From Tardiphaga sp. 709 (lineage in GTDB: Bacteria > Pseudomonadota > Alphaproteobacteria > Rhizobiales > Xanthobacteraceae), in NCBI RefSeq assembly GCF_032401055.1, contig NZ_CP135529.1, forward strand, positions 2,790,001-2,854,000: DNA of 64,000 bases, read 5' to 3'. A program made the translations under genes and the position numbers. Position 1 is the stretch's first letter. Each line of letters starts with the position of its first letter. The notes under the pieces were generated by a model. The model saw only the letters and a program-made list of their open reading frames with translations. It did not search any database and was not told where the DNA came from. This document shows positions 15,732 to 53,343 of this stretch, piece by piece.

Positions 15732-15752
15732 AACTCCTCCGAAAAGAAAAAA

Positions 15753-15778
15753 GGACCGCTTGCGATAGCAAGCGGTCC
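15753..15778 (-). terminator. Orphan rho-independent terminator or attenuator
   Basis: GGACCGCTTGC and GCAAGCGGTCC flank a GATA loop; on the minus strand the hairpin is followed by TTTTTTCTTTTC. This is one of the clearest terminators in the window, yet no minus-strand gene ends here. It either closes an unannotated small RNA from about 15780-15950 or attenuates the small frame at 15603-15731. Confidence 0.7.
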
Positions 15779-16190
15779 AAGTCTAGGGAGGAAACGCCCA
15801 AGGAGGGCAGCGATAGCGCAAGCGCTACCGCACCGCAACAATATGCAGCCGCGGCGCACCAAGTGCAAGAGTTTTCGGGCAAATTTCTATGCAAATTTCG
15901 CATGGTGATCGCACCGTTCAGGCATGGGCGTCATAATTTCTATAAGCAAAATCAATACGATATAGAAACGACAGTAGCTTTGACCTATTTAAGATATGAT
16001 TACTTATTCATTTCATTGGCCAATTTCTGATGCCGGACATCAGAAATCTTAGAGAAATCGCAATCCGATTCAGCGCTGTGGCCTAGGGAAATCGCAGAGA
16101 GATTTCGATCACCGCAGATGCGAGTCGTTGCCCTGCGCTGTATAGGAAGCGACACGTCCCCATCCAGCTGCCGCAACAAAGGACCTCTCC
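15779..16190. other. AT-rich intergenic stretch with palindromes, no gene seen
   Basis: The stretch is conspicuously AT-rich for this genome, especially at about 15920-16050. It holds a hairpin TAGCGC-AA-GCGCTA near 15815, a direct repeat of GCAAATTTC (15879-15887 and 15891-15899), and a perfect palindrome ATTTCTGATG/CATCAGAAAT at 16023-16047. No coding frame with a ribosome site was found. A minus-strand small RNA ending at 15753-15778 is possible. Confidence 0.45.
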
Positions 16191-28935: not shown

Positions 28936-29619
28936 TCACGGCTTTCGATGAGCGTCGATAATCGTGTTTCGGTACTCGTCGGGTGAAGCGTTCGTCTTCG
29001 TTGCGTCTCTGAAGCGCTGCTTCATCGCAGGCGTCAGTTCGACGCCCTCGACAGCAGCGATTTTCTCATAACAAGCAGCCCCAAGAATAAACTCACCGGC
29101 CGCATTCGCTGCCGTGAAAGTCCGGCATCTCGCGATGAACGCCGCCAACTCTGTCGGCCCTGTAAACCGATGCACCTCGCCGGCAAAGTCCGCCATCCGC
29201 GCCATGTCACGAGCCCGCTGGTCACGTCTGTAGTTGACGACAAAACGCAGAAACTCTGCATTGAAACGCTCCGGGCATCCCGGCCCCGTATCCGCACGCA
29301 CCCGTCCCCATCCCAACGTCGTCCGACGTAAAACGCGCCACAGGCAAAGCCCGGTCGGATAATCCAGATGGATCAGCGTGTCCGCCCGCGTCAGCCGCAA
29401 CACGAGTGTGCCGCTGTAGTTGCCATCCATGATCCAGCGCGGTTCAGCCGCCAACGCCTCGACTGTCGTGCGCCAGACGTCGCTATCCGGCATGCGCCAA
29501 CCAGGCTGCCAATAATGACGGTCGAGATGGATCACCGGCAGGCCCGTGATGTCAGACAGCGCACGAGCCGCCGTACTCTTTCCCGCGCCTGGACAGCCAA
29601 CAATCAAGATGCGCTTCAA
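28936..29619 (-). CDS. P-loop nucleotide kinase-like protein, FlaR/topology-modulation type (227 aa)
   Basis: Small AAA/adenylate-kinase-like ATPase. The TTG at 29619 is chosen because GGAG lies eight bases upstream and the frame then starts MKRILIVGCPGAGKSTAARA, with Walker A at about residues 8-16. The pattern HLDRHYWQPGW ... RWIMDGNYSGTL ... RADTLIHLDYP is typical of proteins annotated as DNA topology modulation protein FlaR. The last 60 residues (PAMKQRFRDATKTNASPDEY) are an extra segment that I do not recognise. The substrate is unknown. Confidence 0.75.
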   Translation of the reverse strand: MKRILIVGCPGAGKSTAARALSDITGLPVIHLDRHYWQPGWRMPDSDVWRTTVEALAAEPRWIMDGNYSGTLVLRLTRADTLIHLDYPTGLCLWRVLRRTTLGWGRVRADTGPGCPERFNAEFLRFVVNYRRDQRARDMARMADFAGEVHRFTGPTELAAFIARCRTFTAANAAGEFILGAACYEKIAAVEGVELTPAMKQRFRDATKTNASPDEYRNTIIDAHRKP

Positions 29620-29752
29620 AGCAAGAACTCCGCGGAGCAGCAATGCCCTTTCCCCGCTCTTGCATAACGCAGCGAGTACGCAGCTTGAGGGAGCAAGGGA
29701 CCTTCGCCATTCTTACTCATGGCGGCTATGACTTTAACGATATATTCCGATA

Positions 29753-29781
29753 TTGACACAATTCCTACAGCGGCTTATATT
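29753..29781 (+). promoter_or_regulatory. Near-consensus sigma-70 promoter
   Basis: TTGACA, a 17-base spacer, then TATATT: one mismatch to the ideal promoter with optimal spacing. Initiation would fall near 29788, exactly where a 10-bp RNA stem begins. No protein gene follows. Confidence 0.7.
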
Positions 29782-29787
29782 CTCCAT

Positions 29788-30170
29788 CACCCTGTCCAAC
29801 GAGGGGCGCTTCTCGAGGGCGTCTTTGGAGGTGGGACAGGGTGCGGCGCCCGCGGACGTGCCTCGCAAGCACGGACTCGGGAGGTCCTAGGTAGCCGTCC
29901 GGGCCCACTACGGGGCTCTGCCGCTTGCGGCTGGACGGGTGCGGGTGAAGGCTGGCGAAAGCCGGCCGGATGACGGGCACGATGCCCGTACCCAGTACCC
30001 GGAAGCACGGCCCCGGGAACAGAAAAGCCGCGATGGAGCGCCGAAAGGCGTGCGCCCACCGAGGGTCGCTGTCGCAGGCAGCCGACGGGACGCGCCACTG
30101 ACTACAAAGTTGCGCCTTTCGGCGCTTCATCCCCCTCACATCAAAGGGGGGGACCACCGAAAGGCCAACT
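29788..30170 (+). ncRNA. Candidate structured non-coding RNA of unknown class
   Basis: Transcription from the promoter at 29753 would begin with CACCCTGTCC (29788-29797), which pairs perfectly with GGACAGGGTG (29834-29843). Further stems include CCGTCC/GGACGG around a GCCGC-TT-GCGGC hairpin (about 29895-29938), GGCTGGC-GAAA-GCCGGCC (about 29950-29967), ACGGGCA/TGCCCGT, GCGCC-TTTC-GGCGC (about 30112-30125) and CCCCC/GGGGG. The 3' end is uncertain. Reading frames across it are low-complexity and differ on both strands, so coding is unlikely. It does not match RNase P RNA, tmRNA, SRP RNA or 6S RNA as far as I can see. It could also be a member of a dispersed structured repeat family. Confidence 0.5.
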
Positions 30171-30363
30171 TGCGCGGCGGCGCGGGGCAGACGGCGCGTG
30201 CGCGCATCATCCGGAGCATGACGTCATCCAGAACAGTACAAAGACTCGCACAGCGCGACCGGGCGCGCGGCGCATCTCTGGGTGGGTAGTCAGCAACCTC
30301 CGGACACGCTAAGCGAATGTCATCCCGCCGGTTCGTCCTTCCAAACGTGTTGTCCCTTCCCGC
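30171..30363. other. Intergenic remainder before the DUF930 gene
   Basis: GC-rich sequence with no clear gene or terminator. It may hold the 3' part of the RNA proposed upstream. Confidence 0.3.
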
Positions 30364-52469: not shown

Positions 52470-52990
52470 TCGCTGCGCGCCCGCGCAGCTCCACTCTCCG
52501 GCTTCCTCACACTCGACCGTCATTGCCCAGCCAGGCGCGCGATTGCGTGCTTGAGTCGAGCGCCAGTCACCCGGGCTGCTCGTGATTCGTCGCCGGCTGT
52601 AGCGTTTACGGAATCCTCCCCCTTGCGGAGGAAGACACCGAGAGCGAGATCACAGCCGCACGAGAGGACGACTACAGGAACGTGACGCTGGTGTAGTTCA
52701 GCACTCCACGCCAGCCTCAGACTACGCCAATTCCTTAACCGAACTTAACATCCGTTCATGTTGAGCGCGCTGAGTGCGTCTCGTTTGCAACGCTGCGCGA
52801 TGGCGTTGAATAAAATGCCCCACAGCCCAAAAAAATTGTTGCGTAGCAGGGTCAAAGAACCTATTTCCGGTCTTGCCCAATTTCGCACGTGCCTGTGGTC
52901 GTGTGTCAGTCGGTAGGTATCCGGACAAGAGGCCGGACAGCCGCCAAGGGATGAAGAAGCCGAGGGTCGTTCGCGGAGTTTTGCGAAAGG
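52470..52990. other. Intergenic region upstream of the decarboxylase leader
   Basis: No reliable gene is seen. Short frames on both strands are low in conservation features. A TCCTCC/GGAGGA hairpin lies at 52614-52632 without a T-run. Confidence 0.4.
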
Positions 52991-53343
52991 CCAGCATCTC
53001 TCTCCAGAGATGCCGTTGAAGGTGACTTTGTTCTTTGCAACCGTGACTGGCAGCCGGAGGCGAACCGGCGCACCTCGTTCTCAACGGGGGACGCGACTTA
53101 AAGCAACGACGGAGCGGGCTTTTTTGGTCTCTGCTGGCTTTCCAACAGCCAGCGCGAATACCGAAGAGGCTTGTCCTTCATTGCCAGGTGTGCGGTAGGG
53201 TCCCCCCCAACCAATCCACGGCAGCACTTACGGTCTGTACTTTTGGCTTTGTCACGCCTCCATCGCGTGCCTGGGTCCGAAAGCGCTGAACCGTCATCAT
53301 TTTTTGAACGTGACCCTTTCGCAGGGCCGTTTGGGAGAGTGCT
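52991..53343 (+). promoter_or_regulatory. Long structured leader of the decarboxylase gene, possible speF element
   Basis: About 350 bases before the decarboxylase contain ordered hairpins: GCATCTCT/AGAGATGC (52994-53013), GCCGG/CCGGC (about 53052-53069) and GCTGGC/GCCAGC (about 53133-53152). The alphaproteobacterial speF RNA motif is known upstream of ornithine decarboxylase genes of this class, and position and size fit. I could not align it to the family model, so the identification is by context. Confidence 0.4.

Follow-up and report, generated by a model that had tools for sequence, protein, structure and literature searches.

A candidate multi-copy structured RNA gene with its own predicted promoter in Tardiphaga and related bacteria

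What does a promoter-like sequence followed by several hundred hairpin-rich bases stand for in the chromosome of Tardiphaga sp. 709? The locus lies on the plus strand of the 64,000-nucleotide stretch that was analysed as a whole, called the window below, to which all coordinates refer. An earlier note had proposed either an RNA gene of a class it could not name or a member of a structured repeat family, and our analysis supports both readings together. We consider it probable, judging from sequence comparison, that the element is a stand-alone structured RNA gene of about 360–420 nt which has its own vegetative-type promoter and belongs to a modular dispersed superfamily, and the alignments support two such families in the genus. 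The existence of the family, the conservation of its promoter, a fold at the level of RNA and its non-coding status are supported computationally; that the RNA of the window would be stable and actively transcribed, as the earlier note worded it, we infer.

The described promoter is present, with the −35 box TTGACA (29753–29758), a 17-base spacer (29759–29775) and the −10 box TATATT (29776–29781), and is of the sigma-70 type (29753–29781, plus strand). A consensus scan of 821 bases returned one promoter-like site (11 of 12 matches), compared with a mean of 0.2 in shuffles. A perfect 10-bp stem does indeed open with the predicted start at 29788, seven bases past the −10 box, as CACCCTGTCC (29788–29797) and GGACAGGGTG (29834–29843) are exact complements. 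Strong structure had also been claimed and is borne out by the folding energy of 29788–30290, which is −258.3 kcal/mol compared with −235.2 ± 7.6 kcal/mol for 100 shuffles, none of them as good (z −3.04). All three features, promoter, stem and fold, are found again in homologues and are therefore not due to chance. The extent of the feature, given as 29753–30290, has to be shortened: the repeat unit holds to about 30204, where the part shared with the most similar paralogue stops, and the last 85 bases or so lie outside the repeat, since nothing else in the own genome strongly matches 30160–30360.

Within this unit we predict a structured RNA of about 364 nt (29788–30151, plus strand), which begins at the predicted start and closes with the terminal hairpin, with a fold based on 79 distinct copies and 26 core sequences and a putative 3′ end at 30151. 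Its P1 domain (29788–29843) consists of the 10-bp stem and a hairpin cap with the conserved GAGGGGCG (29801–29808), which is present in the second family too; the P1 helix is 91% canonical and shows double changes in 9 of its 11 pairs. The central domain (29843–30031) is closed by P2 (29843–29847/30027–30031) and contains P3 (29849–29859/29871–29881), P4 (29885–29898/30007–30018), P5 with an ACUACG loop (29901–29906/29913–29918), P6 (29920–29922/29929–29931) and P7 (29936–29942/29995–30001), the window coordinates of P2–P7 being taken from the alignment of the 26 core sequences. It is followed by P9 (30032–30131), a 19-bp stem (30032–30050/30113–30131) with a variable inner hairpin, whose 19 pairs are 96% canonical and in 10 cases changed on both sides. 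The terminal hairpin CCCCCTC...GGGGGG (30131–30151), the weakest outer helix with 76% canonical pairs, is not followed by the T-run of an intrinsic terminator; a T-run within 120 nt is found in just 11 of the 79 copies and a clear terminator is absent from the set. The remaining 3′ extension (30152–30204), which ends near GACGGCGCGTG, is common to the closest paralogue and kept in orthologues. All these parts are on the plus strand. The tail GGCTGTTTGA, found on 37 of the 79 copies, is absent from the window copy, and TGGCTGTTTGAMA has no match within the window.

Using a threshold of E ≤ 1e−20 we obtained 165 matches to the element, 113 of them full length and 79 distinct, with a mean identity of 65%. 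In the own genome this family, family 1, has ten strong matches, namely the window copy, three at 80–82% and six at 72–74% identity. It occurs in 22 of 41 genomes (own included) and in all 18 of the genus; beyond the genus the matches in genomes G021 and G039 are weak and unconfirmed, and the weak matches L064 and L065 could not be placed. A 19-base core pattern was found in at least 119 genome-contig stretches of named genomes, of which, among the matches listed, 100 fit the element profile, the other 19 being taken as chance. Record titles among these listed matches include Tardiphaga, Pseudolabrys, Rhodopseudomonas and Bradyrhizobium sp. NFR13, furthermore Hyphomicrobiales and Rhizobiales MAGs and single MAGs labelled Methylocystis, Devosia and Rhizobium. 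Neither family was matched among 72,556 plasmid records and family 1 was unmatched among 50,697 phage records; one pattern match on a viral contig was dropped, as profile support was absent. Model R1, for which 26 of 30 non-redundant core sequences were aligned and four with long inserts were excluded by hand, found the own genome as sole match among 385 genomes of the class with six candidates scored per genome, a scan that says little on distribution, having held five genomes of the order (own included), recovered 6 of the 10 own copies and passed over a further genome belonging to the same family. One family-1 copy, L070 in G012, ends in an apparent short tandem repeat of the tail motif (TGGCTGTTTGAAA).

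The promoter is conserved along with the element. Allowing one mismatch in the −35 box, two in the −10 box and a distance of 15–19 bases, it was found at the expected place in 89 of 110 distinct copies (3.1 in shuffles), a set from which 17 matches starting later and three at a locus end were omitted. Among the 79 full-length copies 65 have it, compared with 1.9 in shuffles, a count that is conditioned because ‘full length’ demanded a match at the promoter end. The 21 of 110 copies without a recognisable sigma-70 promoter at that place are in part near misses and in part copies from other genera, where another motif stands upstream. At the window element's own site, TTGACA-N18/N17-TATATTC is kept in genomes G001 and G002, where upstream DNA and spacers are unrelated, and G010, with related upstream DNA, has kept TTGACA and carries GATATT as −10 box. 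Four copies outside Tardiphaga (L302, L053, L264 and L301) have no TTGACA and share TTATCCCC, with CTTAT about 17–22 bases further on, which at the position of the promoter perhaps represents a different promoter class.

Covarying base pairs among homologues had been named in the earlier note as a check on the structured-RNA reading; they are found, and the reading is not refuted. RNAalifold on the 79 full-length copies gave 109 pairs. Under a tree-based null the yield of covariation is modest, with four column pairs reaching E < 0.05 when every pair is counted, each of them inside the structure. Ranked among all column pairs, 20 of the 109 structural pairs fall in the top 0.1%, compared with 0–2 for slid partners. 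The 26 core sequences have 96.6% of their 1110 cells paired and a covariation score of 0.321 (0.052–0.090 when slid; none of 500 shuffles as high), the structure being derived from the same alignment on which it was scored. A structure derived from the 55 Tardiphaga copies alone, within a joint alignment, pairs 86.9% of 2572 cells in the 24 copies from other genera, compared with 41.8–49.9% for slid structures, and shows 303 both-side changes against 59–98. In the plus-strand helices G-U outnumbers A-C by 1019 to 174, a ratio of 5.9 that falls to 1.3–1.4 at slides of −2 and +2, which fits an RNA of that strand and not a DNA cruciform. The alignments thus support selection on the fold of a predicted plus-strand RNA. 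The fold of family 2 pairs 96.8% of cells in copies that vary little, and its covariation is weak (both-side changes in 24 of 168 pairs, 11–19 when slid).

In line with the earlier note, which had recognised no landmarks of RNase P RNA, tmRNA, SRP RNA or 6S RNA in this sequence, no family of Rfam (release 15) reaches its gathering threshold at the window element. At E ≤ 10 there were two implausible hits (E 2.3 and 4.1), and seven further family-1 and four family-2 loci, searched at E ≤ 1, gave nothing at threshold. RNase P-like and CsrB-like motifs were weighed as well, and we take them to belong among the rejected known classes.

The second family came with the ends of the first. The motif GTGGCTGTTTGA forms the end of several family-1 copies, and for the 11-base tail TGGCTGTTTGA the genome gave 27 hits, its reversed control two. 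Five of the 27 are at family-1 ends, 21 at family-2 ends and one elsewhere (L096). Family 2 has at least 28 copies in the own genome (40 of 97 candidates scored), the others being 83–95% identical to the query. Its 5′ part is made up of an A/T box, TTGACA...TATATTCC, a GTCCTG stem, GAGGGGCG and GGATGCGG, its 3′ part of a long stem, a hairpin and the tail (detected in 25 of 28 copies), and this order matches that of family 1. The box-plus-promoter pattern gave 25 hits (24 family 2, one family 1) and the 5′ module pattern 26 (25 and one). A third family with the same ends was considered and rejected, as the patterns for 5′ box, 5′ module and 3′ tail hit only the two families, save for L096, which was excluded from the family-2 alignment. 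Searched with the family-2 profile, 11 family-1 loci give matches at their 3′ ends (E 2.5e−6 to 1.3e−10), ten of these loci lying outside the named Tardiphaga records, and therefore modules are common to both families. Family 2 was found, partly as partial copies, in all 16 genus genomes tried and in none of nine genomes of other families. A Br-REP2-like palindrome lies within 300 bp to the left of 24 of the 28 family-2 copies and of 2 of the 10 family-1 copies; from the 64-kb window it is absent throughout, with none in 637 windows of 300 bp. Membership of the element in Br-REP1/2 was rejected, as the REP lies outside the RNA unit and so is not the repeated unit here.

To take a closer look at the history of individual sites, we compared orthologues of the gene downstream of the window element. 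Among 12 of them a full-length element is found in six, one cut by a contig end in a seventh and none in five, G005 among them; in these five the upstream element is missing within reach and thus not needed there. The window element is 97.3, 94.5 and 85.2% identical to its orthologues in G001, G010 and G002 (G001 and G002 without the promoter, which fails to align), and the adjoining intergenic tail 83.7, 83.6 and 79.5%. In the G002 orthologue the middle domain (about 29925–30025) is the version of another subfamily and the rest is orthologous. On its other side the window element adjoins a kinase/AAA-like gene, named by eye (28936–29643, minus strand), which is unmatched in 1.5-kb flanks from G001 and G002. 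In G005 both this gene and the element are absent from the interval, and gltD stands almost directly before the downstream gene.

For family 2 we compared 20 of at least 24 copies of G005 with the own genome, and 16 of the 20 are at sites common to both, 13 by both flanks and three by the right flank only. Orthologous copies are 89.7% identical, non-orthologous copies of the two genomes 89.2% and paralogues 89.8–90.9%; orthologues being no closer than non-orthologues while flanks are about 93% identical, the family shows concerted evolution. Three of the four unshared G005 sites are element-free in the own genome, and the fourth (L335, L375) has a family-1 copy in the own genome and a family-2 copy in G005, with orientation and flanking genes unchanged. 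Concerted evolution of family 2, a swap of families at one site and the gain or loss of sites are thus supported computationally. At L380 (about 206200–206770 of the own genome), one of the three element-free sites and in G005 the place of a whole family-2 element, a REP pair is followed within about 12 bases by CTGTTTGACAGTTGAAT, possibly a deletion scar or a pre-insertion site. No target duplication was seen in the three filled/empty pairs, whose flanks have diverged too far for the ends to be placed. With assumed ends, terminal inverted repeats measure 3–6 bp in the window copy (4.6–5.2 for shuffled window ends), 4–7 bp, mostly 5, in 22 family-2 copies and 3–5 bp in five family-1 copies; the family-2 ends YAAACA and TGTTTG were rejected as inverted repeats, their match being within chance.

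Several other explanations have to be weighed against an RNA gene family. That a protein or small-ORF gene had been overlooked is scarcely credible to us: the window copy has open frames, but fully open frames (7–12 of the 79 copies) are no commoner than in shuffles (10.6–13.3), substitutions in 64 close pairs are even over the codon positions (671/694/702) and most indels in the family are not multiples of three. The earlier note had seen no protein-like frame, and with no conserved protein frame in the family this impression holds and the structured-RNA reading is again not refuted. A cis-acting, riboswitch-like leader of the downstream gene, which encodes a secreted protein of 126 aa, would suit the window, where that gene is on the same strand and starts 213 bases past the terminal hairpin, and would suit the seven orthologues with a full-length or contig-cut copy upstream. 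The five orthologous genes without one speak against it, and so does the whole set of 38 own copies (10 family 1, 28 family 2), 27 of which have a convergent downstream gene, arguing that the element is not a leader; 18 copies lie between convergent genes. These downstream counts come from the same gene caller that missed the kinase gene at 28936–29643, which makes its upstream-gene column unreliable. As the loci have no downstream gene in common, and no consistent co-directional gene of one kind, the leader was rejected and is in our view very improbable. A partner protein beside the copies was rejected as well: within 3 kb of 90 family-1 loci, element-covering frames aside, no cluster of neighbour proteins exceeds six loci, and the largest (6 of 90) are by eye orthologous neighbourhoods or common transporter families. 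An array of DNA palindromes of the REP/BIME kind, acting as DNA and transcribed incidentally, would account for copies that are hairpin-rich and intergenic and, in family 2, mostly adjoin REPs, but leaves the excess of G-U over A-C in plus-strand helices and a promoter conserved in matching orientation unexplained, and we give it very little credence.

The serious rival, which we hold possible, though on the doubtful side, is a mobile element of the REP-associated or MITE-like kind that is selfish and non-autonomous. Here the promoter and the folded RNA would at most serve the movement of the element, with an enzyme supplied in trans and no gain for the host. High copy number, the palindrome left of most family-2 copies, the three G005 sites that are empty in the own genome, the five orthologous genes without an element at the site of the window copy and the fact that none of the 38 copies overlaps a called gene all fit such an element. 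Against it stand end repeats within chance, the lack of a target duplication in the filled/empty pairs (with flanks too diverged for their ends), the many family-2 sites common to two genomes, a fold conserved across genera and the absence of matches in plasmids (both families) and phages (family 1). As a counterpoint to a gene family, concerted evolution can keep copies alike without a function at any single site. A related reading, which we consider unlikely, is a protein-free RNA element as a bacterial counterpart of SINEs, in which the folded RNA is needed for copying and swapping of the cassette by an enzyme in trans; it would explain two cores with a common 5′ layout and 3′ tail as well as the exchange of families at one site and the concerted evolution.

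For the RNA gene family, which we prefer, we propose that the promoter would drive a plus-strand RNA whose fold is the product under selection. Copying from site to site, probably a gene conversion that uses the ends common to the copies, would keep the intergenic copies alike or exchange one for another. Sites would occasionally be gained or lost, and the unit may also move. The RNA would then be a structural RNA acting in trans, for example as a protein-binding scaffold or decoy, and the many copies would supply its dosage.

We know of no role for the bacterial RNAs GOLLD, ROOL and OLE. With these, as they are described in part of PMC12286853, the element has in common that it is large and intricately folded, and it differs from them in its many copies per chromosome and the lack of an Rfam match. 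The nearest precedent seen is, by analogy, QMITE1 of Coxiella burnetii, in the passages of PMC5896051 concerned with it a 300–400 bp element of about 50 copies with sigma-70 promoters that is a source of sRNA and has positions largely conserved between strains; it has terminal inverted repeats of 21–28 nt, short direct repeats, overlap with ORFs and ORFs for basic peptides. Our element resembles it in the many copies and in an internal sigma-70 promoter, recognised by its sequence, but its end repeats are within chance, no called gene is overlapped and no frame is conserved; its covarying fold spans genera, whereas these passages on QMITE1 describe folding and mention no covariation (PMC5896051). 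In Bradyrhizobium, according to sections of PMC5082802, Br-REP1 and Br-REP2 are palindromes of 20–40 nt, and its authors refer to a larger repetitive element, itself undescribed, that includes Br-REP2. Palindromes like Br-REP2 lie left of most family-2 copies, and the RNA element is separate from them and much longer. The same sections list BjsR5, BjsR6, BjsR7 and BjsR10 of B. japonicum as multi-copy sRNAs (2–4 copies) conserved in Bradyrhizobium; by their description they resemble our predicted RNA in being orphans of which a related genus has imperfect copies (PMC5082802). Rhizobiales-1, a candidate RNA motif of the same order that is given without an Rfam number in a table of PMC2864571, can be set beside the element by this table entry alone and may be identical to it. 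A literature search returned no paper on Tardiphaga with noncoding RNA, and word searches in the bacterial ncRNA surveys PMC11109978 and PMC8632094 found neither Bradyrhizobium nor Rhodopseudomonas.

If transcribed, the element would represent a class of large structured RNAs that no family of Rfam release 15 matches, with no partner protein in sight and dozens of genes per Tardiphaga chromosome. With 38 copies found in the own genome, strand-specific selection on the fold and an exchange of two different RNA cores between similar ends, it lends itself well to asking in what way one multi-copy RNA could serve as functional gene family and dispersed element at once, and which tasks large ornate RNAs perform in bacteria. 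Elsewhere in the window, Rfam matches were obtained for the suhB/mmgR sRNA (15738–15815, minus strand, 72 bits) and for the ar45 sRNA (52875–53123, plus strand), the latter directly upstream of the speF leader at 53132–53277.
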